A DNA stretch of 64,000 nt from Ruminococcus sp. (GTDB taxonomy: Bacteria; Bacillota; Clostridia; Oscillospirales; Ruminococcaceae): positions 1 through 64,000 of the forward strand of contig JAFXSC010000002.1 of assembly GCA_017525915.1 (NCBI GenBank). Reading direction: 5' to 3'. This document shows, piece by piece, positions 2,467 to 38,627 of this stretch. Under the pieces are notes generated by a model, which made no database searches, had not been told where the DNA came from, and was given only the letters and a program-made list of their open reading frames with translations. The translations under genes and the position numbers were made by a program. Position 1 is the stretch's first letter, and each line of letters opens with the position of its first letter.

Positions 2467-2497
2467 GAGGACCGCATAAGCGGTCCTCTTCGTTTTT
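2467..2497. terminator. Hairpin terminator downstream of the LRR-dockerin gene
   Basis: GAGGACCGC (2467-2475) and GCGGTCCTC (2480-2488) form a nine-pair stem with a four-base loop. The T-rich tract TTCGTTTTT follows on the plus strand. It lies just beyond the stop codon of the minus-strand gene and probably ends transcription there too, although its T-run favours the plus direction. Confidence 0.65.
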
Positions 2498-5400
2498 ATT
2501 TCTTTCGCGCTGCAATGAAGTCCTCGATCTTCAGATCAGGATCATTAGCGAGTTCAGCACAATAAGCGAGTACGAAGGAAGCATCGACAGCTGTTATAAG
2601 CCCGTCGCCGTTTATGTCGAACTTTGCTATTACGTCATCTGTGGGAAGCTCTGCATCAGGTGCGGAAAGCTCTGCACACTTCACAAGTATCTTGGAAGCG
2701 TCCACGGCGTTGATAACTCCGTTACCGTCGATATCTCCGAATTTTGCGGTTTCCTTTATAGCTTCAAATGTGTAGCCGCATTCCTTAGCATATTCCTGAG
2801 CCTTAGAGTTTTCATAGGAGCGGATCGTACCTGTAAAAGCATCGTCTAGGCAAAGAAGCGACATTTCTCCGGCGTGTGACCGCAGCAAACAATCAGGATT
2901 TAGGACTGTCAGATATTTAAGCTTCGGGCACTGCCAGAAGACCATCCAGCTTATATCATCAATTGATGCAGGTATCGTTATCTCCTCCAGCTCCTTGCAG
3001 CCCTCGAATGCACTGCGTCTTATTTCTGTAACAGTATCAGGAATAGTAAATGTTTTGAAGGAGCATCCGTTAAATGCGTACGATCCTATCGTAGTAACGG
3101 AAGCAGGGATAGTGAAGTTTGTAAGAGGACAACCAGCAAATGCTAAATCGCCTATTTCTGTGATTCCCTCAGTGAGTTCCACCGATTCAAGGCTGTTACA
3201 GCCCAAGAATGCTCCGGATATTTCTGTAACTGAATCAGGTATAGTCACTGATGTCAGACCGCAACCATAGAACGCCTGATAATCTATTTTTGTGATCGTA
3301 TCTGGTATGTCTACACCTTCGACCTTAGTACAATCCCTAAAGGCTTGTGCGCCTATAACAGTAACGGGAACGTCTTTGACCGTTGACGGGATAGCTATGC
3401 TTCCCTCTGCATCCTCGCTGCACTTAACAAGCTCGGCATGGTCAGAGTATACGTTGAACGAAATGCCGTTTTCTGTTACGGTCTTATATTCCTGAGGGGT
3501 GGTTGTAGAAGTAGTTGAGGTCGTTGAAGTTGTTGTGCTTGTAGTGGAAGTTGTGGAAGTCGTTGTAGGCTTCTTTGTAGTGGTAGTCGATGTTGTAGTG
3601 CTTGTGGTTGTTGTAGTTGTGGTGGTAGTAGTTGTGGTTGTGGTGGTAGTTGTCGAAGTAGTAGTTACAGCACCGAGGGATTCAAATGTGTAGCCGTACT
3701 TTTCAGCGTATGCCTGAGCTGTTGAACCCTCATAACCGCGGATAGTGCCGCCAAATCCGTAACCATCATTGTGATAACCTGTTTCGTCCTCATATGCCTT
3801 GATTCCGGTGGCTATAGTCGTTCCTTCATCGCAGATATCGCATTCCGGATTGAGTATCGTTATCGAGCTGAGATTTCGGCAGCCATAGAACGCATTCTCT
3901 CCGATGCTTGTAACAGATGCAGGAACGGTTATTTCTTCAAGTTCAGAACCAGCAAATGAATATTCACCTACCGTCGTTACTGTATCAGGAATATCATATT
4001 TTTTTATGCCTGTGTACGCAAATAGCCATGAGATGTCTTTTTGATCAGCTGGAAGCACGAATGTTTCAAGTGGACAGCCTGAGAAAACCCATCTTCCAAG
4101 CCATTCTAAAGAATCGGGGATAGTCACGGATTTCAAGTTGCAGCCACAAAAGGCATTTTCACCGATGTTTGTAACAGATTCAGGCAAATTTATTTCCTCG
4201 AGACTGCTGCACATCTGGAATGCGCCAGCTCCGATGCTTGTGACTGTATCTGGAATAGTGACAGACTTTAAATTATAGCAATTTTGAAAAGTACTGCTTT
4301 CAATTTTCGTAAGTGATGAAGGAAGCTTTACAAATTCAAGCTTCTCACAAGATGAAAACGCACCTTCACCTATAGCTTTTACTGAATCAGGTATAACAAC
4401 TGAACTAATGGAAGCCCCTTTCATTGCTTCAGCAGCAATATACTTAACTGTATCAGGGATAAAAACATCGCCGGTACAATTACTTCCGTCGAGAAGTATG
4501 TCATTAACAATAACGAACGAAGATGATTCATCAATCAGTTTTTCTTTCCATTTTGTTCCATAAAAAGCGCCTTTTCCTATACTTGCAACAGAGTCAGGAA
4601 TGCTTAACTCCTCGAGATTTAGGCACGCACAGAATGCATAGTCACCGATTCTTGCAACAGAATCGGGAATAGTGACAGATTTAAGATTTGAACACATGTA
4701 GAAAGTATTATCTTCAATTTCAGTAATTGAAGATGGGAGCTTAATTGATTCAAGCTTATCGTTCCAAGAAAAGGCATATTTTGCTATTCTTGTAACAGAA
4801 TCAGGGATAGTGACAGATCTGACATTTGGTAAGTTAAAAATCGTTGTGACAGAATCAGGGATAACAACCGAGGTGATATCATCGCCGAACGAACAATCTC
4901 CTATGACTCTGACTGTATCAGGAATAGTGATATCACCGGATAAACCGTTTGTTTTAAGCAAAACGCCATTTATTATTACATACTCATCTTCGTCATAATT
5001 AGGATAATTCTTTTCAAGCCACTTTGTACCGTAAAATTCTAAAATATGATTTATCCCAATGAGAGATTCCGGCATTTTTATTTCTTCAAGGTTCGTACAC
5101 CCAGTAAAAGTCTGACCGTGAAGCTCAGTAACGTTGTCGGGGATTTCAATTGATTTAAGAGAAACGCAATTCTGGAACAATCCTCCTCCCTCATTCATTC
5201 CGCCGAATTCTATCAGGTTAGCCGGAAGTTTAACAGAACTGAGCTTGGAATCATTGCAAAATGCTCCTCCGCCTATCTTTGTTACAGAATCAGGGATCAC
5301 GATAGATTCAAGATTTTCCATGTTGCAGAAACCGTACATTCCTATTTCAGTAAGGGTTTCCGGAAGCTCAACAGAGCTTGCAGTACAATTCATGAACAGG

Positions 5401-5756
5401 TCACTGCCTATGGTAGTTATTCCGTCCTCGATTATGATCTTGCTGATGTCGAGGACAAGGAATTTAGGCATTTTTAAGCTGAGTTCACCCTCATTATGGG
5501 TGTCGTAGGTTTTGCCTTTACCGCTGAGAATGAGAGTGCCGTCGCTATAGAATGTATAGTTGACATAAGGACCTGCCTTGCCTGTGCTCACTATCTCCCT
5601 TTCACCGGAAGCAGTCTTTGCAGTAGTCGCGTCTCCTGTGATGTCCGCAGCACCCGCCGTCATAACGCTATAAGGAGAATAACGATACACAGACGGAGCT
5701 GTTCCGCCGACAACAGCAAAAGCCATTGCGGCTGCAATGATTTTTTTCAGATTCAT
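2496..5756 (-). CDS. Secreted BspA-type leucine-rich-repeat protein with C-terminal dockerin
   Basis: Starting at ATG 5756 (GGAGGG seven bases upstream) the protein is 1086 residues and begins with a signal peptide, MNLKKIIAAAMAFAVVGG. Most of it is tandem BspA-type LRRs, with recurring units such as LKSVTIPDSV.. IG..AF..C. A Thr/Ser-rich linker (about residues 690-750) divides it into two LRR blocks. The C-terminus (about 1000-1080) is a type I dockerin with two calcium-binding repeats, DIDGNGVINAVDA and DINGDGLITAVDA. Dockerins plug into cohesins of cellulosome scaffolds, so this is likely a non-catalytic, possibly adhesive, complex component. The open frame extends to 5819, but that codon is the TTG of the -35 box. 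Confidence 0.9.
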   Translation of the reverse strand: MNLKKIIAAAMAFAVVGGTAPSVYRYSPYSVMTAGAADITGDATTAKTASGEREIVSTGKAGPYVNYTFYSDGTLILSGKGKTYDTHNEGELSLKMPKFLVLDISKIIIEDGITTIGSDLFMNCTASSVELPETLTEIGMYGFCNMENLESIVIPDSVTKIGGGAFCNDSKLSSVKLPANLIEFGGMNEGGGLFQNCVSLKSIEIPDNVTELHGQTFTGCTNLEEIKMPESLIGINHILEFYGTKWLEKNYPNYDEDEYVIINGVLLKTNGLSGDITIPDTVRVIGDCSFGDDITSVVIPDSVTTIFNLPNVRSVTIPDSVTRIAKYAFSWNDKLESIKLPSSITEIEDNTFYMCSNLKSVTIPDSVARIGDYAFCACLNLEELSIPDSVASIGKGAFYGTKWKEKLIDESSSFVIVNDILLDGSNCTGDVFIPDTVKYIAAEAMKGASISSVVIPDSVKAIGEGAFSSCEKLEFVKLPSSLTKIESSTFQNCYNLKSVTIPDTVTSIGAGAFQMCSSLEEINLPESVTNIGENAFCGCNLKSVTIPDSLEWLGRWVFSGCPLETFVLPADQKDISWLFAYTGIKKYDIPDTVTTVGEYSFAGSELEEITVPASVTSIGENAFYGCRNLSSITILNPECDICDEGTTIATGIKAYEDETGYHNDGYGFGGTIRGYEGSTAQAYAEKYGYTFESLGAVTTTSTTTTTTTTTTTTTTTTTSTTTSTTTTKKPTTTSTTSTTSTTTSTTSTTSTTTPQEYKTVTENGISFNVYSDHAELVKCSEDAEGSIAIPSTVKDVPVTVIGAQAFRDCTKVEGVDIPDTITKIDYQAFYGCGLTSVTIPDSVTEISGAFLGCNSLESVELTEGITEIGDLAFAGCPLTNFTIPASVTTIGSYAFNGCSFKTFTIPDTVTEIRRSAFEGCKELEEITIPASIDDISWMVFWQCPKLKYLTVLNPDCLLRSHAGEMSLLCLDDAFTGTIRSYENSKAQEYAKECGYTFEAIKETAKFGDIDGNGVINAVDASKILVKCAELSAPDAELPTDDVIAKFDINGDGLITAVDASFVLAYCAELANDPDLKIEDFIAARKK

Positions 5757-5790
5757 TTCAATCCCTCCAAAAAGGTTTATTAACACTTCC

Positions 5791-5819
5791 ATTATACACC
5801 TCAAATATGAACAAGTCAA
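5791..5819 (-). promoter_or_regulatory. Promoter of the LRR-dockerin gene
   Basis: On the minus strand TTGACT (5819-5814), 17 bases, then TATAAT (5796-5791). It is about 35 bases upstream of the ATG at 5756. Confidence 0.8.
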
Positions 5820-6977: not shown

Positions 6978-7940
6978 CTATTGAACAGTTCCTGCATCAT
7001 GACAGGTGTCGGGTAGCGTTGAAGGCAGTGGGTCAATACCTGCATTTGCTCTTTCGTGCGGAAGTCTTCCGCCATGCTTTGTATGTTCCTCTTTTTCTCT
7101 TCCGGGAATCCCCTTTTCGTTTTCCTTTTCATTATGCGGAAGTGTTTCCTCCGGAGGTTTTGGAGGCTCCGGCTGGTCTGGCAGTAATCCCACATCATCA
7201 GTCGGCGGTTCCGGCGGCTGCGTAAGTCCTTCGTTTTCGGTAGGTGTTTCCGGCGGCACAGGTGCGGTCGGCAGATCATTCTTGCCAGCGGCAGGCGGCT
7301 CCGGCGGAGCAATTCCCTCAGAAACAGGCTCGGGAGTCTGCGGAGCTGTCGGAGGAACAGGCTTCTGCTCACCGTTGTACTTCTCTATCGGCTGTACATC
7401 TGCATTCAGGTGCATTACGGCAAGGTCCTGCTTGATCTCATTGCTGAAACTACTGTCTGTATCCGGAATATAGACCGAGACAGTATCGCCGTCCGCGATA
7501 TACCCCTTTGACTTGCTTATGCCGACGATATCGCTGACCGCATCGTTCTTATCCTTGCCCTTTCCGCTGTAATCGCTGAGAACAGCTTCGCCCTCCGGGG
7601 TCATGCTCTCGATTTTTATTACCTTGTCCTTTTTGTTGAGGTACAGCTTTACTCCGGCATTTGAGGAGATGATAACGGTCGAATGCGTCTTGTAATTTAC
7701 CGAGTAATAGTGATAGCCGGTGCCGCAGATTATTGTCAGGCAGGCTGCCGCAGCGGCAACGCTCATGATAATGCGGTTCTTCCTGCGTGATCTGCCTTCT
7801 TCGCTCTCCATGAGAACAGGTGTGGTCACGGTCTGTCCGACTTCATAATTGAGGTTTGCCGCCTTCACGAAAGCAGAATCCTCGTCCATCAGCACAGCAT
7901 ATCCCTTATGGCATTCCATAACTATGTATTTCACTGTCAT
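6978..7940 (-). CDS. rsgI: Anti-sigma-I factor, RsgI-like, with Pro-rich outer domain
   Basis: A 320-residue membrane protein. Residues 1-50 match the RsgI N-terminal anti-sigma domain (VKYIVMECHKGYAVLMDEDSAF..). One transmembrane helix lies at about 60-80 (IIMSVAAAAACLTIICG). An extracellular conserved region (about 88-190) follows, then a Pro/Glu/Thr-rich tail to the end. RsgI holds sigma-I at the membrane and releases it on an outside signal. In cellulolytic clostridia the outer end is often a carbohydrate-binding or hydrolase module; here I see only low-complexity sequence. The start overlaps the sigI stop (ATGA), so the two are coupled. Confidence 0.9.
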   Translation of the reverse strand: MTVKYIVMECHKGYAVLMDEDSAFVKAANLNYEVGQTVTTPVLMESEEGRSRRKNRIIMSVAAAAACLTIICGTGYHYYSVNYKTHSTVIISSNAGVKLYLNKKDKVIKIESMTPEGEAVLSDYSGKGKDKNDAVSDIVGISKSKGYIADGDTVSVYIPDTDSSFSNEIKQDLAVMHLNADVQPIEKYNGEQKPVPPTAPQTPEPVSEGIAPPEPPAAGKNDLPTAPVPPETPTENEGLTQPPEPPTDDVGLLPDQPEPPKPPEETLPHNEKENEKGIPGREKEEHTKHGGRLPHERANAGIDPLPSTLPDTCHDAGTVQ

Positions 7941-8653
7941 TCACCGCCTTTCAATACCTGCATTATGTGTCCGCGCATTATCTCGTAGCCGTTGGTACAT
8001 ATGAGCAGTACCGCCACAAGATAGCGCCTGTGTCTTTCAAGTGATTTTCTCTCAACTGCCGCCCCGTCAGCAAGCTTTGCTATCGGGACTTTTTTTGTCC
8101 TGAGAAAATCCGCAAGGAGCTCCGGTTCGCTCCTCGCATAGCGTATCGCCTTGCCGCATATTTCAAGAGTGCGGCGCTGGCGTGGAGAATTCTCCGCAAC
8201 ATCGCTCATGGATACACCGAATTCGTTCATCTGTGCGGAAAGCTCCTCTATTTCCTTACGGGTCGCCTCACGGAGTTCGCAGTCAGCATATTCGTCAGTT
8301 TCATCTGCAACTGTATCGATCAGACTGTTGTCATCATCGTCGGTCTGGTCAAGCGAGAGCGTTCCCCTGCTGCGTTTTTCCCTGCGGAAATTGTCGATAA
8401 GCCGGTTCTTTATGTAAAGCGCGGCGAATTTCAGAAATGATCCGCGCAGCCGTGAATACTTCTTTATTGCTTCATAGAAGGCGAACATCGCTATGCTGAG
8501 TTCATCATCGCTTTCCTCAGGAGCGCGGTTCATGAACTTCGAGGTCTCTGAACGTATGAACGGCATATAAGCCTCGATAAGCTCGTCAGCCGCACGGCTG
8601 TCCTTCTTTGCTGCATAGACTTTTGATATGAGTTGTTTAGCATCGGGATCCAC
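7937..8653 (-). CDS. sigI: RNA polymerase sigma-I factor
   Basis: SigI family: a sigma region 2 (about residues 20-105, with FMNRAPEESDDELSIAMFAFYEAIKKY and FLKFAALYIKNRLIDNFRRE) followed by the SigI-specific C-terminal domain. In clostridia sigma-I factors control polysaccharide-degrading and cellulosomal genes. The open frame runs to 8764, but that codon is the -35 box of a sigma-A promoter. The best start is GTG 8653, preceded by GGGGGTGAG; ATG 8668 lacks a binding site and would lie at the start point of the second promoter. The operon is sigI-rsgI. Confidence 0.88.
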   Translation of the reverse strand: MDPDAKQLISKVYAAKKDSRAADELIEAYMPFIRSETSKFMNRAPEESDDELSIAMFAFYEAIKKYSRLRGSFLKFAALYIKNRLIDNFRREKRSRGTLSLDQTDDDDNSLIDTVADETDEYADCELREATRKEIEELSAQMNEFGVSMSDVAENSPRQRRTLEICGKAIRYARSEPELLADFLRTKKVPIAKLADGAAVERKSLERHRRYLVAVLLICTNGYEIMRGHIMQVLKGGE

Positions 8654-8678
8654 GATTCTCACCCCCATATTATTTATA

Positions 8679-8711
8679 GTATGCGTAAGCTGTCTCCCGA
8701 AACCGGGGTAG
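8679..8711 (-). promoter_or_regulatory. Candidate sigma-I autoregulatory promoter of sigI
   Basis: The minus strand reads CTACCCCG (8711-8704), 18 bases, CGCATA (8685-8680), then CTATAAA. It matches the element before the Pro/Glu-repeat gene in both blocks and in spacing. Autoregulation is usual for sigI genes. Predicted start about 8671, giving a short leader to GTG 8653. Confidence 0.6.
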
Positions 8712-8735
8712 CCGGCACTATTTCTCATATTAAAT

Positions 8736-8764
8736 ATAATAGCAGAGTTCTCCGCAGTTATCAA
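8736..8764 (-). promoter_or_regulatory. Sigma-A promoter of sigI
   Basis: The minus strand reads TTGATA (8764-8759), 17 bases, TATTAT (8741-8736). It would give basal expression upstream of the sigma-I-like promoter. Confidence 0.75.
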
Positions 8765-8795: not shown

Positions 8796-8824
8796 TTTAC
8801 TTTCGCGACACTCCGTGGTATAAT
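8796..8824 (+). promoter_or_regulatory. Promoter of the GH25 lipoprotein operon
   Basis: TTTACT (8796-8801), 17 bases ending in GTGG, then TATAAT (8819-8824). It lies divergent to the sigI promoters. Confidence 0.75.
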
Positions 8825-8853
8825 TATTCTATCATTCTTGAAAGGATTATAAT

Positions 8854-10161
8854 ATGAAATACAAACTTGCCATCCCTGCCGCAGCTCTTCTCACACTTAC
8901 CTGCGGCTGCGGAAAAATAAAAAGCAGCGGAAGTCCCTCCGAGGTGACTTCTTCCTCCGCAGAAACTGCCTCCACTGCCGTCAGCGAAACGACTACTGCT
9001 GTCACGACCAAGGCGGTCATCACAACGACAAAAAAAGCCGAGCCTCCGAAGGACCTCGTTATGGAGAACAAGCAGAAGCTCGGCGTTTACGATAAAGTCA
9101 AGGTCGCGGACTTCATCACCTCAACAAATGCAGTCCTCACAGAGCCGGACGCCGCCGTTGATACCTCAAAGACCGGAAGCTGCGAGATAACCGTTAAGTA
9201 CGAGATAAACGGCTCTCAGTACGAAAAGACGCTTTCATATACGGTCGAGGACAACACAGACCCTATCGTCCTCAATTCCGGCTGGGCTGCAAACCATGTC
9301 AGAGGAACACAGTTCGACCTTGGAAAATATGTCGGCTATGCCGATAACTATGACAGTGCCCCCGTTCTTACCTATACCGGCAATATCGACCCGAATACAA
9401 GCGGCAGCTACCCCATAACCGCTACCGTCACCGACAGCTCCGGAAATTCCACGAGCTGGGACCTCATCATAAAGGTCGCGGACAGCTTTCCGCCGACGCA
9501 GTACGACAACGGTGACCCGATGCCCTTCACTAACTTCATAGGAGCCAATGCAAACACAGGCGCGGTGAGCTTCGGCATCGACGTTTCTGAGTGGCAGGGC
9601 GATATCGACTTCAACGCGGTAAAATCCGACGGCTGCTCGTTCGTTTTCATGAGAGCAGGATACTGTTACAGTCACATCGTCAAGGACCCATACTTCGACC
9701 AGAATTTCAGCAGAGCAAAGGCTGCCGGTCTGAATACAGGCTTATACTTCTACACGACAGCTTCAAATGAGGAACAGGCTCGCGAACAGGCAAGGTGGGT
9801 CATCGAACAGCTCGGCGGTCAGAAGCTCGAACTCCCTATTGCCTTCGACTGGGAGGAGTTCGGAACGTTTCAGGAATACGGCATGAGCATCCATGACATC
9901 AACGAGGTCTATCTCGCATTTGCCGACGAAGTTGAAAAGGCTGGCTATACGCCCATGCTTTACAGCAGCAAGAATTTCCTCAATACTGTCTGGTCTGAGG
10001 ACACGAAAAAGGCTCACCCGGTATGGCTCGCCCACTTCATAGACAGGACAGACTATACCGGAGAATACGATATCTGGCAAGGAAGCTGCACCGGAAAGAT
10101 TTCTGGTATATACGGAGATGTTGACCTGAACGTGCTCTATAAGGAGCTTCCCCTGAGCTGA
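8854..10161 (+). CDS. GH25 lysozyme-family lipoprotein
   Basis: A 435-residue exported protein. The N-terminal hydrophobic stretch ends in LTCGCGK, a plausible lipobox. A Ser/Thr-rich spacer follows, then immunoglobulin-like repeats (about 65-220) with the DNTDPIV and DSFPPTQ signatures of bacterial Ig-like modules. A glycoside hydrolase family 25 domain runs from about 240 to the end, starting GIDVSEWQGDIDF and carrying the acidic pair in AFDWEEF. It should cleave peptidoglycan glycan strands at the cell surface. It begins a plus-strand operon with the TerB-like and DUF2791 genes (gaps of 13 and 16 bases). Confidence 0.88.
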   Translation: MKYKLAIPAAALLTLTCGCGKIKSSGSPSEVTSSSAETASTAVSETTTAVTTKAVITTTKKAEPPKDLVMENKQKLGVYDKVKVADFITSTNAVLTEPDAAVDTSKTGSCEITVKYEINGSQYEKTLSYTVEDNTDPIVLNSGWAANHVRGTQFDLGKYVGYADNYDSAPVLTYTGNIDPNTSGSYPITATVTDSSGNSTSWDLIIKVADSFPPTQYDNGDPMPFTNFIGANANTGAVSFGIDVSEWQGDIDFNAVKSDGCSFVFMRAGYCYSHIVKDPYFDQNFSRAKAAGLNTGLYFYTTASNEEQAREQARWVIEQLGGQKLELPIAFDWEEFGTFQEYGMSIHDINEVYLAFADEVEKAGYTPMLYSSKNFLNTVWSEDTKKAHPVWLAHFIDRTDYTGEYDIWQGSCTGKISGIYGDVDLNVLYKELPLS

Positions 10162-10174
10162 AAGGAAACCCGAT

Positions 10175-11668
10175 ATGAACGACAAGTTCGGGACATTCGA
10201 CCTGTTCATCAGTGACCTGAATGATAAAGCGGATGCCAATACATACCGCAGCATACCTGTGAAGAATTACATACGCCGCGCAGAAAAAGCCCCGGTGCCG
10301 GAAAGGATAAGGCAGATGAAGGAGCTTGCCTTCACTTCGGAGGCTTACTGGAAGACCTCTCCGTGGCTTTTCAGACAGCAAGGACTTTTCATGGCGGACT
10401 ATACTGACGACCAGCCCTTCGGCGAGGACTTTCCCGCCTACTATCCCACTTACCGTGACCTCAGCACGGAACAGCTCCGAGGCTATTTTTCTTGGAGGAC
10501 CGCCGTCAGACGCGGTGAGCTCCCAGATGCGCCGCAGCCCTTCATACTCATGTATGCCTATGAGCTGATAAACCTTATCGGAGCAGGCTCTCCGGAGGAA
10601 GCCTTCGGCAAGCTCAAATACCTTTTTTCCCGTTACAGTGAGGGCTGTCAGGAGCTCCAGCGCGGCGCTGAAAAGTGGCTCTGCGACTTCGCGGCTTACT
10701 ATCAGCTCCCGAAGGAATTGCTCGGAGATACGCCCGATATGATTTACGACAGGGCTGTGCTCACTCTCCGTGACTGGGACGAGCAGGACGATGACAGCCT
10801 GTTTTTCGCGATATCAAGGCTCTCAGCCTATCAGCCGGAGCACTCTGCAATGTTTGAAGAATCGCCTGAGCTTTTCCGCAACGCGGTCTGCCGTGCCTAT
10901 TCCGCACTCGCCGAGCATTTCAGGCTCAAGCGGAAAAATCCTCTCGCGGAAAAGCTTTTCGGCAAGACTGTAGAGATCAGGCACCGGCTCTTTGAAGGTG
11001 CGGTCTTCTTCGATACCGATCCGCGCAGAAGTCTCGATTACGAGATCGACCCGATACACAGCATCATCTGCCGCTCCGGCGACTGGTTCTGCCGGAAACT
11101 CTACGGCAACCGCGGCAGGAACAAGCTGCTCGGTGAGATAGTCCGCACCGTTGACAGTTCACTCCGTGAGATCACCGGCAGACAGCATAAAATAGCCGCC
11201 GGTGAGCTCTCCGCTTTTTCCGCGAAGCTCATTGCAAAGGCTGTGCAGAATACTGTGAATGAGCAGAAGCGGACCGAGCAAAGGCACATCACCATCGACC
11301 TCTCAATGCTCGGGGCAATACGCTCCGCTGCCGATATCACGCGCGAAAGGCTCATCGTTGACGAGGAGGAGGAAGAAGCACTCTCCCCTGCCCCAGCCAC
11401 GCCGCCGGTCATCGAAAAGCCGGCAGATAATTCCCTGCTGAACGCCGCTGAAACGGCTTTCCTGAGAACACTGCTGTGCGGCGGAGACTATGCCGGCACA
11501 GCAGGAAAATACGGTGTTCTCCCTTCCATTGCTGCGGACAGCATAAACGAAAAGCTGTTTGACATTTTCAGCGACAACGTGATAGAGTTCAGCGGAGACG
11601 TCCCCTGCATCATTGAAGATTATTCCGATGAACTGAACGAAAAATTCGGCATACAGACAGATCAATAA
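10175..11668 (+). CDS. TerB_N/TerB_C domain protein
   Basis: A 497-residue cytoplasmic protein. Residues about 30-220 match TerB_N, recognisable by LRGYFSWRTAVRRGE and LMYAYELINLIG. The last 70 residues match TerB_C (INEKLFDIFSDNVIEF ... IIEDYSDELNEKFG). No classical TerB core is evident between them. Such proteins have been linked by comparative genomics to stress and DNA-processing gene clusters. Here the gene sits 16 bases before a BrxD-like ATPase and near an Lhr-like helicase, so a shared nucleic-acid function is inferred. The start has an AAAGGAAA site. Confidence 0.8.
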   Translation: MNDKFGTFDLFISDLNDKADANTYRSIPVKNYIRRAEKAPVPERIRQMKELAFTSEAYWKTSPWLFRQQGLFMADYTDDQPFGEDFPAYYPTYRDLSTEQLRGYFSWRTAVRRGELPDAPQPFILMYAYELINLIGAGSPEEAFGKLKYLFSRYSEGCQELQRGAEKWLCDFAAYYQLPKELLGDTPDMIYDRAVLTLRDWDEQDDDSLFFAISRLSAYQPEHSAMFEESPELFRNAVCRAYSALAEHFRLKRKNPLAEKLFGKTVEIRHRLFEGAVFFDTDPRRSLDYEIDPIHSIICRSGDWFCRKLYGNRGRNKLLGEIVRTVDSSLREITGRQHKIAAGELSAFSAKLIAKAVQNTVNEQKRTEQRHITIDLSMLGAIRSAADITRERLIVDEEEEEALSPAPATPPVIEKPADNSLLNAAETAFLRTLLCGGDYAGTAGKYGVLPSIAADSINEKLFDIFSDNVIEFSGDVPCIIEDYSDELNEKFGIQTDQ

Positions 11669-11684
11669 CACGAAAGGCAGTAAT

Positions 11685-12992
11685 ATGAATATTCCTAAAA
11701 GGATAGCTTCGGCGGTGATCAATTCGCTGAAGGGCGGTGTAGTGCCGCGGACCGGTCTCCCCTATATCACGGTGGGACGTGAAAAAGAAATTGAAGCCCT
11801 GCTGAGGGACGTCGATATCATCTCGGAGGGCGGTGCTTCCTTCCGCTTCATTGTCGGAAAGTACGGCAGCGGCAAAAGCTTTCTCCTGCAAACTATAAGA
11901 AGTCATGTCATGGACAGGAATTTCGTGGTCGTTGACGCTGATCTTTCCCCAGAGAGAAGACTTCACGGCAACAAGGGTCAGGGACTTGCGACCTACCGCG
12001 AACTTATTACAAATATGTCAACAAAGACCCGTCCGGATGGCGGTGCGCTCACTCTTGTGCTCGACAGGTGGATAAGCGGTATTCAGTCCGAGGTCGCTTC
12101 CGGCGGAATTTTCCCGGATTCTCCCGGCTTTGCGGAGGCTGTTGAGAGCCGCATCCATTCGGTGATAGGCTCGCTTAACGAAATGGTGCACGGCTTTGAT
12201 TTCGCAAGGCTGCTGACCATGTACTATCGTGCCGGAATTGCCGGTGACGATGCATCGAAGGCAAAGATAATCCGCTGGTTCAGAGGCGAATACGACACCA
12301 AGACCGAAGCGAGAGCTGATCTCGGAGTGAACATAATAATCACAGACGATGACTGGTACGAGTATATCAAGCTTTTCGCGGCATTCCTCAGACGAGCCGG
12401 TTACAGCGGTCTGCTCGTGCTCATTGACGAACTCGTGAACATCTACAAAATCCCCAACAGCATCACGCGCCAGTACAACTACGAAAAGATACTGACGATG
12501 TACAACGATACCTTGCAGGGGAAAGCACGTCACCTCGGCATTATCATGGGCGGTACTCCCCAGTGCATCGAGGACACGCGCCGCGGCGTTTTCAGCTATG
12601 AGGCTCTGCGTTCAAGGCTCGCGGACAGCCGTTTCAGCAGCGGCAGCCTGCCCGATATGATGTCACCGATAATCAGACTCGTTCCCCTCACCTATGAGGA
12701 AATGCTCGTCCTCATCGAGAAGCTCGCCGATATCCACGCCCAGCTTTTCGGCTATCCCCAGCGCATAACACAGGACGAAATGATCGCTTTTATTCAGGCA
12801 GAATACGGCAGGATAGGCGCCGACAGCCACATTACTCCCCGTGAAGTGATCCGCGATTTCATCAGCGTACTTGATATCGCATTCCAGAACCCACAAAGCT
12901 CCTTCGCCGAGATAATCGGTACAGTCAGCTCCGCCGCTCCGACGTCCACTGACACAGACAGCGACGAGGACTTTGCGGAATTCGAGATATAA
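11685..12992 (+). CDS. DUF2791 / BrxD-like P-loop ATPase
   Basis: A 435-residue ATPase of the DUF2791 family, which includes BrxD of some BREX phage-defence systems. Walker A is GKYGSGKSF (about residues 57-65) and the Walker B-like strand is LLVLIDELVNIYK. The N-terminal GLPYITVGREKEIEALL segment and the RGVFSYEALRSRL arginine-finger region also fit. No PglZ or PglX methylase is present in the window, so this is not a complete BREX locus. It is the last gene of the GH25-TerB-ATPase operon and converges with the helicase gene at 13028. Confidence 0.85.
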   Translation: MNIPKRIASAVINSLKGGVVPRTGLPYITVGREKEIEALLRDVDIISEGGASFRFIVGKYGSGKSFLLQTIRSHVMDRNFVVVDADLSPERRLHGNKGQGLATYRELITNMSTKTRPDGGALTLVLDRWISGIQSEVASGGIFPDSPGFAEAVESRIHSVIGSLNEMVHGFDFARLLTMYYRAGIAGDDASKAKIIRWFRGEYDTKTEARADLGVNIIITDDDWYEYIKLFAAFLRRAGYSGLLVLIDELVNIYKIPNSITRQYNYEKILTMYNDTLQGKARHLGIIMGGTPQCIEDTRRGVFSYEALRSRLADSRFSSGSLPDMMSPIIRLVPLTYEEMLVLIEKLADIHAQLFGYPQRITQDEMIAFIQAEYGRIGADSHITPREVIRDFISVLDIAFQNPQSSFAEIIGTVSSAAPTSTDTDSDEDFAEFEI

Positions 12993-12996
12993 CAAC

Positions 12997-13022
12997 AGCC
13001 GGAAGTCATATGACTTCCGGCT
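12997..13022. terminator. Shared bidirectional terminator between the BrxD-like and helicase genes
   Basis: A perfect 26-base palindrome, AGCCGGAAGTCAT joined to its complement. It is followed on the plus strand by GATTTTTA. It separates two convergent genes. Confidence 0.75.
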
Positions 13023-13027
13023 GATTT

Positions 13028-15268
13028 TTATCCGCAGTATGCAGACCATTCCTTAATGCGTTCCCTCATGCCCTTGATATCGAGTATACCGTGTGCAAAG
13101 CCCTTTCTGATGAGCTCCGGCGGAAGGTACTCATCGTACTTCTCAAACACGGGGACTTCGCCCGGATACACAAGGTCCTCCGGCGGGAAATCCTTTGCAG
13201 CTTCTTCTGAAACAACGCGGAAGAATTCCTCCGGTGCAGCCTTCATCGTGAACTGAATGAAATACGGACGAGAGCTGTCCATGCCCTTTAGTCCGAGGCG
13301 CTCCGCACATTTTATCTTCAGCAGGCGTTCAAGCGCAAGAAAAGCGTAGCTTCCGAGCCAAGGCAGCAGACACCACATACTTCCTCCGAGACATATCAGC
13401 GGTGTATCGGTAAAGCCAGAGTTTTTCGCGGTATTACGAGCCTGTATAAGCCTTGCGGCGGCGTTTTTCATGAGGTAGGGATAACTCTTTTCCTCGCGGA
13501 GCACAAGCCTCATACGTTCGAGTATCTTTGTGTTGATATCGCCGGGACAGTCCCCGAAATACGCAGGGACTTTGCCCTTTATCTTCTCGACATAGACCAA
13601 TCTCCTCTTATGGTCGAGTTCCTCCACTATCCACACATGACCGGCTATGGCGAGCTTTTCCCCGACAGGCGGCGGCATCACGACAGTGCCGAGCTCCTGC
13701 GATTCCCAGCGGACGGTGTACTCCTCGTTCTCCTGAAATACTGCGTAGAACTTGAAGCTGTTGATTACTCTCTCGCCGGCAAGACCGACTATCAGCCCTC
13801 CCTCCTCGGTGCGCTGTATATGTTCAGTCTCAAGAAGGTGGCGCAGCAGAAGCTTGTAGTCGTCATGACTTATCCTATGGAATACTTTAAGTGTAAGCAC
13901 GCTCCTCGCGAGCTCGGAAGGCTTCATTTCGCCGTTTGAAGCAAGTGTACCCATGGTCTGGTGATAGAGCAGCGAGAATGGAAGACGGTCAAGCTTCGGC
14001 GGCTCGACCCAGCGCTCCTCGATGTAGGTCTGGACGAGCGCTATCCCCTGCAAGAGCTTCCAGGGTATCGTCTCCGGCAGAAGTGAACGCGGTTCCGGAA
14101 GCTCCTCGCGCACAACGAACCACATCTCCGGCGGAAGTCCGCGCCTTCCCGTGCGTCCCATTCTTTGAAGGAAGGACGAAACGGTGAACGGCGCATCTAT
14201 CTGAAAGGCACGTTCAAGCCTTCCGATGTCGATACCAAGCTCGAGAGTAGCGGTCGTGCAGGTGGTCATGAAGGTATCCTCGTCCTTCATCGCAGCCTCG
14301 GCAGTCTCACGGTAGGCGGCAGAGAGGTTGCCGTGGTGTATCAGAAAACGGTCCGGCTCGCCGTTGGCTTCGCAGTAGGAGCGGAGAGTCGTCGTGACAG
14401 CCTCGCATTCCTCTCGCGAATTGACGAAGACAAGGCATTTTCTGCCGCGTGTATGCTCAAAGATATAGCCCATTCCGGCATCTGCGTTTTCAGGCGCGGT
14501 ATCGGTCGGCAGGTCAAGCTCAGGCAGAGCTTCGGGGACATCCTTTTCGTCCGCAGCGCCGTTCTTCTGTGAGATGTAGAAATGCTCCATCGAAAGCCGC
14601 CATTTCACGCCCTTGGCTTCTATCTTTGGTACGACAGTACCTTTTCCGGTACCGGCAGCAAGAAACTCACCGGCAGCAGCCGGGTCGCCTATCGTTGCGG
14701 AAAGCCCTATCCTACGCGGATTAGTCCCCGAAAGCCGGGAGAGTCTTTCTATAAGGCAGAGCGTCTGTCCGCCGCGGTCACCGCGCATAAGCGAGTGTAC
14801 CTCGTCAATGACGATAAATCTGAGGTCGCCGAAAAGCTTAGGTATGAGCGCGTGCTTTCTGAGAAGCATAGCTTCAAGGGACTCCGGCGTTATCTGGAGT
14901 ATGCCGGAGGGCTTTTTCAGCATCTTGCTTTTGTGTGACTGTGCAACGTCGCCGTGCCAGTGCCATACGGGTATGTCAGCCTCCTCGCAGAGCTCGTTGA
15001 GGCGGCTGAACTGGTCATTGATAAGCGCTTTCAGCGGTCCGATGTATATTGCCCCGACCGATGCCGGCGGCTTCTCTGAAAGCAGTGTCAGTATAGGAAA
15101 AAAAGCAGCCTCAGTTTTGCCCGAGGCTGTTGAAGCTGAAAGCAGGACGTTCTCATCGGTATTGAAAATCGCGTCGGCAGCGGCTGCCTGTATCGCACGG
15201 AGCTCTTCCCAGCCGCTGCGGTAGATGAAGTCCTGAATAAACGGTGCGTACCTGTTGAAAATATCCAT
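13028..15268 (-). CDS. Lhr-like DEAD/DEAH-box superfamily 2 helicase
   Basis: A 746-residue helicase. Visible motifs: Walker A in STASGKTEAAFF (about 43-54), DEVH in VIDEVHSLMRGDRGG, SAT in GLSATIGDP, and motif VI in QRMGRTGRRG. The C-terminal part has no recognised extra domain. It resembles the Lhr/BrxHI group. It lies next to, but convergent with, the DUF2791 ATPase and TerB-like gene, an association suggesting one DNA-processing or defence module. Its start is two bases after the ArsC-like stop, so it is also the last gene of the maf operon. No clear ribosome binding site precedes it. Confidence 0.87.
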   Translation of the reverse strand: MDIFNRYAPFIQDFIYRSGWEELRAIQAAAADAIFNTDENVLLSASTASGKTEAAFFPILTLLSEKPPASVGAIYIGPLKALINDQFSRLNELCEEADIPVWHWHGDVAQSHKSKMLKKPSGILQITPESLEAMLLRKHALIPKLFGDLRFIVIDEVHSLMRGDRGGQTLCLIERLSRLSGTNPRRIGLSATIGDPAAAGEFLAAGTGKGTVVPKIEAKGVKWRLSMEHFYISQKNGAADEKDVPEALPELDLPTDTAPENADAGMGYIFEHTRGRKCLVFVNSREECEAVTTTLRSYCEANGEPDRFLIHHGNLSAAYRETAEAAMKDEDTFMTTCTTATLELGIDIGRLERAFQIDAPFTVSSFLQRMGRTGRRGLPPEMWFVVREELPEPRSLLPETIPWKLLQGIALVQTYIEERWVEPPKLDRLPFSLLYHQTMGTLASNGEMKPSELARSVLTLKVFHRISHDDYKLLLRHLLETEHIQRTEEGGLIVGLAGERVINSFKFYAVFQENEEYTVRWESQELGTVVMPPPVGEKLAIAGHVWIVEELDHKRRLVYVEKIKGKVPAYFGDCPGDINTKILERMRLVLREEKSYPYLMKNAAARLIQARNTAKNSGFTDTPLICLGGSMWCLLPWLGSYAFLALERLLKIKCAERLGLKGMDSSRPYFIQFTMKAAPEEFFRVVSEEAAKDFPPEDLVYPGEVPVFEKYDEYLPPELIRKGFAHGILDIKGMRERIKEWSAYCG

Positions 15269-15270
15269 GA

Positions 15271-15621
15271 TTATTTAAGGAGCGCTTCCCATTCGCTTTC
15301 GCGGAAGCCAACGAGAACGGCACTGTCTGTGATAAGGAGCGGACGCTTGACGAGCATACCGTCCGATGCGAGAAGTTCAAGCTGCTCACTGTCTGACATT
15401 GAAGGCAGCCTGTCTTTAAGCTCAAGCGAGCGGTATAGCATACCGCTCGTGTTGAAGAACTTTTTCAGCGGCAGACCGCTGAGACTCTGCCATTTCTCAA
15501 GCTCCTGACGGGTAGGATTGTTCTCCTTTATATCGCGCAGCTCGTAGCTTATACCGCTGTCTTCGAGCCATTTCTGTGCCTTTTTGCAGGTCGAGCATTT
15601 AGGGTAGCATATAAAAAGCAT
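15271..15621 (-). CDS. ArsC/Spx-family thioredoxin-fold protein
   Basis: A 116-residue protein of the ArsC/Spx/YffB family. It keeps the N-terminal redox motif CSTCKK (residues 9-14), the RDIKENNPTREEL-like block, and the KRPLLI segment around residue 92. Family members include glutaredoxin-dependent arsenate reductases and the Spx regulators. There are no ars genes nearby, so a general redox or regulatory role is as likely as arsenate reduction. It sits between the DUF1015 gene and the helicase in one minus-strand run. Confidence 0.82.
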   Translation of the reverse strand: MLFICYPKCSTCKKAQKWLEDSGISYELRDIKENNPTRQELEKWQSLSGLPLKKFFNTSGMLYRSLELKDRLPSMSDSEQLELLASDGMLVKRPLLITDSAVLVGFRESEWEALLK

Positions 15622-15660: not shown

Positions 15661-16932
15661 TCAGAGGGTTATCCTTCTTGCTTCCATGTAGAAACGCTTG
15701 TCCTCTGCATGACCCATTGAGAAGGTCTTGCGAGGGAGAGCGCCGTCCTTGATAACGGTCGGGAAAAGCTGGGATTTGTCCATATCGGGCAGGATAAAGC
15801 CAAGTCCGCTGTGCTTCTTTGCAAGTGACTTAACGGTATCGGCGCCGTGGATATAGTCTATCTTTCCGCCGTTGGCCTTTATATATCCGTCAAGGAAGTT
15901 CTGGAGAGAGCCTACGGAAAGATTGGAGGTCTTCTTGGTTATATAGAGTTTCTTCTCCGTGCCGTCCGTGCAGAGGATAACGTACTGGTCGGAGGTCTCA
16001 GTCTCGGAAAGTCCGAGCGCGTCTGTCAGCTCAGATACGAGCTTTGCGTTGTCAACACCGTATACAAGGCGGTGGATAGCCTCGAATTTCAGTGCATCGC
16101 TGTGGAGGTTCACTATCTCTGCAAGCGCATAGCGTGCCGGATGGTCAGAGAGATCCTTGTCCGGATTCGCCTTTTTGAGCTGCTCATAGAACTCCTTTGC
16201 GGTAGCGAGAGAATGGTTGCCGTCACCCATCGCATAGAGGAGTACCGGAGCGCCGTCAAGACCGTACTTGCCGTTGAACACATCGGGGGCGGAAAGAGCT
16301 GTAAGTGCGGAATCTATTCTCTCCTGCTCAGCTTCGTCTGCGAGCCACCCCTTGATGCTGCCGCCGTTCTGCATGAGTTCGGTGTCGTACAGCTTCTTCA
16401 TGCTGCCGGTCTTTGCTGCAAGGGGCTCTATAACTGTATTTTCCGGGTCGTCAATGAGTATCATGATATGCGGAAGCTCAAGCGGTGCGCCCTGACGCAC
16501 CTTGATGCGCGGAGGTATGCGCTCTATAACGGTAGCCTCAGTCGCGCGGACCTCCGAACTGCTTCCCTTTGAGAAATCGTACTTTTCAAGGTCGATAGCG
16601 CCGACTATTCCCTGACGGAGTATGCCGTTGCTCTGGACGCGCTCAACATATACCATAGCGTTCCTGTATTCATCGAAGATGCCGCCCGAAACGTACTTGT
16701 CCATAGCACTGTGGATAGCGTCGATACGTCCTGCAACGCCGTCCTGTTCAAGATAAAGCTCGGGAAGGATAAGGTTGAGGGTCGAAGGAGCATCGCCGAC
16801 TGTACTGCTCACCTGCTCCCAGTATTCGGGCTCGCTGGTGTACTGGTCGCAGGCAATGACTGACCACTTGTACATATCTGTTCCCTGCTTCGGAAGAAGG
16901 ATATCCGCGTTGTGAAAAGCTGTTGAATTCAT
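15661..16932 (-). CDS. DUF1015 family protein
   Basis: A 423-residue conserved cytoplasmic protein. The DUF1015 pattern is clear: an N-terminal WSVIACDQYTSEPEYWE, VERVQSNGILRQGIVGAIDLEKYDF, and a central LYAMGDGNHSLATAKEFYEQ. The molecular function is not established. The start ATG overlaps the maf stop (ATGA) and has AAAGGAG within the maf 3' end, showing translational coupling. Confidence 0.9.
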   Translation of the reverse strand: MNSTAFHNADILLPKQGTDMYKWSVIACDQYTSEPEYWEQVSSTVGDAPSTLNLILPELYLEQDGVAGRIDAIHSAMDKYVSGGIFDEYRNAMVYVERVQSNGILRQGIVGAIDLEKYDFSKGSSSEVRATEATVIERIPPRIKVRQGAPLELPHIMILIDDPENTVIEPLAAKTGSMKKLYDTELMQNGGSIKGWLADEAEQERIDSALTALSAPDVFNGKYGLDGAPVLLYAMGDGNHSLATAKEFYEQLKKANPDKDLSDHPARYALAEIVNLHSDALKFEAIHRLVYGVDNAKLVSELTDALGLSETETSDQYVILCTDGTEKKLYITKKTSNLSVGSLQNFLDGYIKANGGKIDYIHGADTVKSLAKKHSGLGFILPDMDKSQLFPTVIKDGALPRKTFSMGHAEDKRFYMEARRITL

Positions 16933-17507
16933 GATAATTCTCCTTTAATGTTATTTATAAATTCTTTGAGTACATTGAAAAGCTCTGTGACAGGCAGACC
17001 TACGACGTTGAAGAAATCACCGTCGATAGAATCAATGAAGCCGCCTGCTATACCCTGTATGCCGTAGCCGCCGGCTTTGTCGTAAGGCTCGTCGGTCGAT
17101 GCGTATGCTTCGATCTCCGGACGCGACATCTTGCGGAAGGTTACGTCTGTAACTGAGGAAAAGCACTCCTTCTGTCCCTTATAGACTAAGCAGCAGCTTG
17201 TCACGACATAGTGGGTATTGCCGGAGAGCATTTCCATGAATTCCAGGCACTCTGTTCTGTCGTGCGGTTTCCCGAGTATCTTTCCGTCGGCGATAACGGT
17301 AGTATCGCAGCCGATAACTACGCAGTCCGGATATTTTTCTGATGCTGCAAAAGCCTTGCGTTCGGCAAGTACAGCCGAAGCGTCCATAGGGATAGTCCCC
17401 TCGGGCAGCGTTTCGTCACAGTCGAGAGAAACTGCCTCAAAATCGTTTGTAATGTACTTCATCAGCTCGCGCCTTCTCGGTGAGCCGGAAGCAAGTATGA
17501 TCTTCAT
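16929..17507 (-). CDS. maf: Maf-family nucleoside triphosphate pyrophosphatase
   Basis: A 192-residue Maf/YhdE-type protein. Typical motifs are ILASGSPRRRELM at the start, AERKAFA, VIGCDTTVIADGKILGKP in the middle, and KAGGYGIQGIAGGFI toward the end. Maf enzymes hydrolyse non-canonical or certain canonical dNTPs and have been linked to cell division. It is preceded by a small membrane-protein gene whose 3' end contains its AAAGGA site. Confidence 0.93.
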   Translation of the reverse strand: MKIILASGSPRRRELMKYITNDFEAVSLDCDETLPEGTIPMDASAVLAERKAFAASEKYPDCVVIGCDTTVIADGKILGKPHDRTECLEFMEMLSGNTHYVVTSCCLVYKGQKECFSSVTDVTFRKMSRPEIEAYASTDEPYDKAGGYGIQGIAGGFIDSIDGDFFNVVGLPVTELFNVLKEFINNIKGELS

Positions 17508-17511
17508 AATA

Positions 17512-17691
17512 TCAGTCCTTTGTCTTGACTTTCAGGAGAGTAAAGCTTGAAACGATAAACATTGCTATCACAAGCACAGGAGTTATCTTGCTCGAGGTGT
17601 GATCTCTGACCCAGTCGTTAGAGAAAACAATGGCACCAACGAACAGTATGAGTTCGATAACAAAGAATACGAGTTTTGTCTTTTTTTTCAT
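17512..17691 (-). CDS. Small membrane protein of 59 residues
   Basis: The frame begins MKKKTKLVFFVIELILFVGA and ends LLKVKTKD. It has two hydrophobic segments (about 8-23 and 37-53) separated by a polar loop with NDWVRDHTSSK. A textbook AAGGAGGAATTATT site precedes ATG 17691. It ends four bases before maf, so it is probably the first gene of the maf operon. The two-helix layout suggests an integral membrane protein; I do not recognise a family. Confidence 0.7.
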   Translation of the reverse strand: MKKKTKLVFFVIELILFVGAIVFSNDWVRDHTSSKITPVLVIAMFIVSSFTLLKVKTKD

Positions 17692-17809
17692 AATAATTCC
17701 TCCTTAACACAGATAGTGTGTTTTTATTAATCTGTAAGCATTTCCGGTATATTCCGGTGCTGTTCACCTTAGTAACGGTGGTATCTGCTGTAAGACTACT
17801 ATTCCTGCT

Positions 17810-37832: not shown

Positions 37833-38627
37833 TCAGTGCTTCTTCCGGAGCACAGCATAAGCGGCGTGGTGAAGTATCTCAAACTCCTCCGGAGCGATGT
37901 CCGCAAGCATTTTCAGATGCTCCTTTTCCCATTCTGCCGTCTTTTCCGGCGTAAGCGACGCGCCTATGCCACGGCACGCTTTCATTCTGCCGTTCCAGCT
38001 CTCACGGGTAAAGGGAACGTCCAGATCGTACTCCTCACGAGCTTCGGTATCGAAATACTCCCCTGCTATCTCAGGCACAAATACAGGCGCACGCTTGTAG
38101 CCGCCGCCCGTCCATGAAGGATTGTATCTTAGTACGAGCTCCTCACTCGCTTTTGCGACCGCATCGTCAGCCGGCACCCACGCCATAAAGAGGATAACGA
38201 GCCTGCCGCCGTCTTTCAGCAGCCTTGCAAGCTTTGGCACTACTACGTCATAGTCAAAGTAAAAGAAGCACTGGCACGCTGTAATGACGTCAAATGTGCC
38301 GTCCGGGAAGTCGATATCCTCGGCTGAGGATACGATGAAGTCTATCTTTTTCCCCTCTTTTTCGGCAAGCACCCTCGCCTGCGCTATCTGCTCCTCCGAG
38401 ATGTCAGCACCGGTCCAGTCAGCACCGAAGCCGTACATAAGCCTCGGCACAACGCCTGTTCCCGTACCAAGGTCAAGAACCTTCTGTCCCCTGACACACA
38501 GACCGCGGCCGGCTATCTTCTGAAAGAAAAGCGGAGGGTAAATGTCCCTGTATTTCGCGTAATCGTCCGAGGCCCTGCCCCAGTCGAAGGCTTTTCCGCC
38601 GTCTATCCCTATATTCCTGATTTCCAT
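37833..38627 (-). CDS. Class I SAM-dependent methyltransferase
   Basis: A 264-residue methyltransferase. The SAM-binding motif VLDLGTGTGVVPRLM (near residue 49) is canonical, and the middle has DVITACQCFFYFDYDVV and GGRLVILFMAW. The substrate is not evident; small-molecule methyltransferases of the UbiE/Methyltransf_11 type look like this. It is the last gene of a minus run that begins at 42182. Confidence 0.87.
   Translation of the reverse strand: MEIRNIGIDGGKAFDWGRASDDYAKYRDIYPPLFFQKIAGRGLCVRGQKVLDLGTGTGVVPRLMYGFGADWTGADISEEQIAQARVLAEKEGKKIDFIVSSAEDIDFPDGTFDVITACQCFFYFDYDVVVPKLARLLKDGGRLVILFMAWVPADDAVAKASEELVLRYNPSWTGGGYKRAPVFVPEIAGEYFDTEAREEYDLDVPFTRESWNGRMKACRGIGASLTPEKTAEWEKEHLKMLADIAPEEFEILHHAAYAVLRKKH

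Follow-up and report, generated by a model that had tools for sequence, protein, structure and literature searches.

Shango (SngABC), for which Millman et al. (2022) is reportedly the source study, is usually laid out on a single strand, although the tools that define the system are not known to require this. Passages of one report (PMC10250203) describe it as a three-gene system of a TerB protein, an ATPase and a DEAD/DEAH helicase that restricts phages, with modest (10–100-fold) activity against many, but not all, phages in Pseudomonas aeruginosa, and also report it from Escherichia coli. Its mechanism is listed as unknown in part of a 2026 review (PMC12926258), and no mechanistic study is evident from titles in literature searches around Shango. 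An excerpt of a further source (PMC12278908) places SngC with BrxHI, DruE and DpdJ in a potentially distinct helicase clade, and the system is named in the partial text of a rumen survey (PMC13356809). The locus considered here, sngA, sngB and sngC, lies in a 64,000-nucleotide stretch of Ruminococcus sp. (assembly GCA_017525915.1, contig JAFXSC010000002.1, positions 1 to 64,000, contig C21 in our numbering; hereafter the window), from a genome of 3.09 Mb in 67 contigs that is 99.9% complete.

The window is best explained as holding a complete chromosomal Shango locus in which an spx-like gene and sngC were flipped in place and whose products would act as two motors and an adaptor, a reading to which we assign a probability of about 0.93. 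All three components lie side by side, contiguous over positions 10175–15268 with no intervening gene and in A–B–C order along the chromosome, with sngC on the opposite strand (Table 1). Each is matched by its own PADLOC model, namely SngA (E-value 3.5e-66, residues 38–490), SngB (2.7e-192, residues 2–435) and SngC (5.1e-280, residues 3–737). The open reading frames (ORFs) sit where a first-pass annotation, made from the sequence alone, had placed them, and Pfam confirms the genes that it described, with TerB_N (9.4e-25) and TerB_C (4.2e-20) in the sngA product, BrxC_BrxD (PF10923; 1.8e-171) in the sngB product, and DEAD (2.9e-28) and Helicase_C (2.2e-16) in the sngC product. The SngB model matched 1 of 14 well-known control genomes and the SngC model 13 of 14 at E 0.001, so SngC is judged here by score and company rather than by a bare match. 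The length of SngA is usual among relatives; the annotated TerB_N proteins of three plasmid-borne Shango-like loci are longer by their coordinates, at 799 (Aeromonas), 573 (Paenibacillus) and 771 (Pantoea) amino acids. Where an undescribed or reduced system had been suspected, the locus is instead a complete example of an already described and named kind, and its rare part is the split layout only. An anti-phage role for the Ruminococcus copy is suggested by its likeness to other Shango members.

Distant homology connects SngB to BrxD and SngC to BrxHI, and the corresponding PADLOC models match the same two proteins (3.3e-51 and 1.8e-125, respectively), as does the NCBIfam BrxD model NF033438 on SngB (174.7 bits). 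That the locus is a reduced BREX module or a BREX remnant is nevertheless hardly conceivable, as the Shango models score far above those for BrxD and BrxHI, and the 174.7 bits amount to half of the curated cut-off of 350. Moreover, the host genome has no match to PglZ (PF08665) at E 0.001, a search in which 2 of the 14 controls were matched, and its single PF10923 match is the 435-residue SngB itself, leaving no separate BrxC; PglX was not among the families searched for. The absence of PglZ and BrxC from the surroundings, as first annotated, thus extends to the whole genome, and the proposal of a separate defence-type system rather than a BREX remnant stands. A lack of nearby nucleases, also proposed, holds for the eight neighbouring proteins run against Pfam, with the qualification that ORFs for large helicases of the UvrD type, which resemble AddAB in their size and order, occur at 47–54 kb. 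No modification enzyme was found beside the locus, and a BREX-like self mark by methylation is therefore not expected. Dpd and Druantia likewise possess SF2 helicases related to SngC, but DpdJ and DruE score more weakly on it (3e-26 and 2.6e-20), and their partner genes differ from those of Shango.

Table 1. Features of the Shango locus and its immediate surroundings in the window.
Feature	Position	Strand	Evidence and remarks
GH25 lysozyme-like gene	8854..10161	+	PF01183 7e-35; stop 13 nt ahead of sngA; same neighbour in L054
sngA, TerB_N/TerB_C protein, 497 aa	10175..11668	+	ORF; residues 417-496 modelled winged-helix-like
sngB, BrxC/BrxD-family AAA+ ATPase, 435 aa	11685..12992	+	PADLOC, Pfam, motifs (Walker A GKYGSGKS, Walker B-like LVLIDE)
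Hairpin terminator common to convergent sngB/sngC	12996..13023		12-pair stem
sngC, Lhr/BrxHI-like SF2 helicase, 746 aa	13028..15268	-	PADLOC, motifs (ASTASGKT, DEVH, SAT, QRMGRTGR), Foldseek
spx-sngC block, inverted relative to closest relative L054	13066..15642		blastn; reverse homology to L054 13700-11134
Spx/MgsR/ArsC-like gene (spx)	15271..15621	-	TIGR01617 4.5e-30, exceeds cut-off; stop 2 nt ahead of sngC
DUF1015 gene	15661..16932	-	PF06245 9.4e-63; spx begins 39 nt downstream
maf-like gene, first of putative maf-DUF1015-spx-sngC unit	16929..17507	-	ORF; promoter-like site 17535-17506

The layout was compared across the window and 129 fetched loci, comprising 49 from the genus and the best 80 of 266 named ones, of which 96 are distinct by sngB sequence. 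Both sngB and sngC occur within 6 kb in 90 of these 96, and they are co-directional in 89 of the 90, one of which is ordered A–C–B; the window alone has sngC, together with spx, reversed. The convergent arrangement, which the first-pass annotation had treated as the architecture of the module, is thus peculiar to the window genome among the loci compared. No sngC was found in 6 of the 96 loci and no sngA in 3, two lying at contig ends in each case. Four loci (L057, L065, L068 and L140) are partial Shango loci that carry sngA and sngB and have room for sngC, yet none was found there, profile search included.

The closest relative, L054, carries Shango in the corresponding place, flanked by GH25 and DUF1015–maf, with GH25, sngA, sngB, a 149-residue lipoprotein-like ORF, spx and sngC all in forward orientation. 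The window and L054 DNA align forward over window positions 8815–12991 and 15667–17758, and in reverse over the block between them (blastn, 81.6% over 2577 columns). Reverse homology between forward flanks indicates that spx–sngC was flipped in place. In L069 and L071, as in L054, spx lies between sngB and sngC, and the order in those two loci is sngA–sngB–spx–sngC on one strand. In midpoint-rooted FastTree phylogenies of 73 loci, the four loci with spx group together as a single clade, with support of 0.991 in the SngB+SngC tree and 0.993 in the SngA tree, and the window is sister to L054 with support of 1.0. Gain of spx therefore occurred once, and the flip followed later on the window branch, making it the derived state.

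The convergent genes are separated by the terminator that had been predicted between them, whose hairpin has a good T-tail rightwards (ATTTTTATCC; ATTTTT) and a weak one leftwards (TTGTTATATC). It has the longest stem among the 15 terminator-like sites in the scan, compared with 9.3 (sd 3.5) in shuffled sequences. Its position between the two genes argues against a block misoriented during assembly, an artefact that could be suspected in a draft of 67 contigs when a single genome of the species was compared. The two junctions have no inverted match of at least 7 bases in common, which argues both against an assembler error, there being no common repeat to mislead the assembler, and against a recombinase switch. 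An assembly artefact is accordingly very unlikely. A phase-variable Shango, in which sngC is turned on and off by flipping, is extremely improbable; it would account for the inversion relative to L054, and two of the 25 inverted pairs listed do span the block (13 nt, perfect, 12647–12659 with 15781–15793; 19 nt at 79%, 12720–12738 with 15846–15864), but each has one arm inside sngB and the other inside DUF1015, away from the breakpoints, and the flipped state occurs in no other locus of the genus, named and phylum sets compared.

The Spx/ArsC-like gene and the GH25 lysozyme-like gene are neighbours that had escaped the first-pass annotation. A role for spx as a core Shango component was considered and rejected, as it is present in only 4 of the 96 loci, all in one clade, and elsewhere this junction is occupied by different cargo; spx is probably a passenger that accompanies sngC within this clade. 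The gap between sngB and sngC exceeds 120 bp in 25 of 92 distinct loci. Related small ORFs, P-loop kinase-like by eye, occupy the junction in L070, L089, L091, L093 and L113, and small ORFs at this position indicate that the junction accepts cargo.

All three reading frames are open. The SngB Walker A motif is present in the window and in 73/73 loci, and the Walker B-like motif in the window and in 70/73; the SngC motifs are likewise present in the window and recur across loci (motif I 71/73, DExH 66/73, SAT 73/73, QRxGRxGR 73/73). Non-synonymous and synonymous divergence (dN/dS) between the window and L054 is 0.093/0.885 for sngB, 0.071/0.907 for sngC and 0.311/1.633 for sngA; dN lies far below dS for each gene, although the dS values are large and hence uncertain. 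In all pairs of loci compared, within a set of 73, SngA varies more than either of the other two proteins. The presence of the SngB and SngC motifs and the dN/dS of sngC make it unlikely that the inversion uncoupled sngC and left a decaying system no longer in use, even though the strand layout is unique and the 4 of 96 loci that have room for sngC but lack it show that partial loci exist. The dN of sngC is higher on the window branch than on that of L054 (0.041 versus 0.030), as decay would predict, but sngB shows a similar excess on that branch (0.049–0.053 versus 0.040–0.044), leaving little to suggest that constraint has been relaxed on sngC in particular. Elsewhere in the set, sngB appears in two pieces in L060 (genome G031), and in L075 (genome G004) an ORF matching the start of sngC, by eye, is called apart from the rest of the gene, which suggests that either the frame is broken or the assembly is faulty.

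SngB is found in 50 of 125 genus genomes (33 of the 68 of good quality), and DUF1015 in 111 of 125 (66 of 68). A phylum sample of 398 genomes yielded 47 SngB matches at E 0.001, of which 21, the window's genome included, exceed 500 bits. In the flanks of the other 20 loci, 15 have sngA–sngB–sngC on one strand, four have B–C with no A found by profile and one has A–B with no C found; sngB and sngC are co-directional in 19/19 loci outside the genus. SngB relatives occur in 691 of 72,556 plasmid records, all below 60% identity and some of them possibly BREX ATPases, and SngB has no match in 50,697 phage records. Three plasmid loci (Aeromonas, Paenibacillus and Pantoea) carry an annotated TerB_N protein, an ATP-binding protein and a DEAD/DEAH helicase on one strand. 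The suggestion that the three proteins belong together, originally drawn from position and family history, is borne out by this one order recurring beyond close relatives; the first-pass annotation had named confinement to close relatives as evidence to the contrary, and the families instead co-occur across the phylum and on plasmids.

An alternative, in which the module serves the genus in housekeeping DNA repair and is not directed at phages, would fit the core-chromosome location and the resemblance of SngC to the Lhr and MrfA helicases. Its probability is nonetheless low, since carriage is patchy next to that of DUF1015, since SngB relatives occur on plasmids (subject to the identity limit and possible BREX ATPases noted above), and since SngB identity to the window barely follows host distance. 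Against DUF1015 identity across hosts, the latter gives a Spearman coefficient of 0.30 (p 0.048) across 43 Shango genomes, after the exclusion, from a set of 49, of six in which DUF1015 was not matched in full. As a case for vertical inheritance this correlation is weak, and that interpretation was set aside. No clean empty site was found at base level among 20 DUF1015 neighbourhoods. Four genomes (G003, G044, G122 and G092) have the DUF1015–maf–pgk order of the window with no Shango there, but the GH25, sigI and rsgI genes of the window were not found next to these DUF1015 genes. In 8 of the 50 Shango genus genomes (G000, G101, G007, G063, G064, G085, G026 and G084), sngB shares a contig with DUF1015 and lies within approximately 14 kb of it. 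This may mark a neighbourhood of repeated insertion, some of these genomes being close relatives.

Promoter-like sites lie ahead of GH25 (8796–8824) and at the gene that we take, from its sequence, to be maf (Table 1). There are 16 such sites in total against 8.0 (sd 2.7) in shuffled sequences, so they are weak pointers. GH25 is possibly co-transcribed with sngA–sngB, and, judging by gene order and spacing, spx–sngC may be the tail of a maf–DUF1015 transcript. The flip removes sngC from the sng operon and places it on the maf–DUF1015 side, and the parts could still work in trans. A more elaborate and rather doubtful proposal is a split Shango, in which the helicase would be supplied constitutively from a housekeeping maf–DUF1015–spx–sngC transcript and SngA and SngB from the lysozyme side, with the fast-evolving and likely phage-facing SngA determining the timing and the targets of the response.

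The SngC model (pLDDT 69.7) has M. smegmatis Lhr as its best Foldseek match (5v9x; E 3.6e-14, TM 0.54, but r.m.s.d. 11.5) and also matches MrfA. Lhr and MrfA share the SF2 core with SngC and are its best Protein Data Bank (PDB) matches by both sequence and structure. However, SngC has 746 residues, compared with 877 and 1508 in solved Lhr-type chains, and its gene is clustered with sngA–sngB. Searches of PDB chains by sequence gave no match for the SngA profile (E up to 0.1) or for SngB (E up to 0.01). Structure matches to SngA in the VIA-align list are, as far as their titles show, winged-helix or helix-turn-helix proteins. A nuclease fold in SngA was also considered, and none is among the matches listed, which cover residues 417–496 only and leave the rest of the protein barely tested.

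From these assignments, SngC would be an ATP-driven, Lhr-type nucleic-acid translocase, and SngB, an AAA+ ATPase of the BrxC/D family, would load or power it. SngA would serve as a TerB-domain adaptor or sensor with a C-terminal winged helix, recognizing the invader or its DNA and recruiting both motors, and the three proteins together would block phage DNA replication or propagation. We infer a helicase–ATPase complex steered by SngA, with recognition, loading and the effect on phage DNA all part of that inference; what has been observed is the family membership of the proteins and how their sequences are conserved, and the mechanism is read from these.

Further features of the window lie outside the locus. 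A SigI/RsgI-like sigma/anti-sigma pair (6978–8764, minus strand; Pfam) adjoins a proline/glutamate-rich repeat ORF; such pairs are a known type for biomass sensing in cellulolytic clostridia. On the same strand, positions 2496–5819 encode a large protein that, as judged by eye from the translation, is secreted and leucine-rich-repeat-like, with extended stretches of threonine and a C terminus resembling a dockerin. At 37833–38627 (minus strand), a partial match to mad2, a model for a MADS defence protein (120/492 profile positions, 1.7e-21), is probably due to a domain of a general kind within a housekeeping gene.

The BREX-like three-gene module of this Ruminococcus now has a name, Shango. 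In one locus, evolution has parted sngC from sngA and sngB, which provides a natural test of the need for an operon. Across the 73 loci SngA changes fast while its two partners are conserved, a consistent contrast that allows a guess that SngA is the subunit that meets the phage. If the split arrangement proposed above is true, Shango would assemble from subunits made in trans, and SngA would be its likely specificity subunit.

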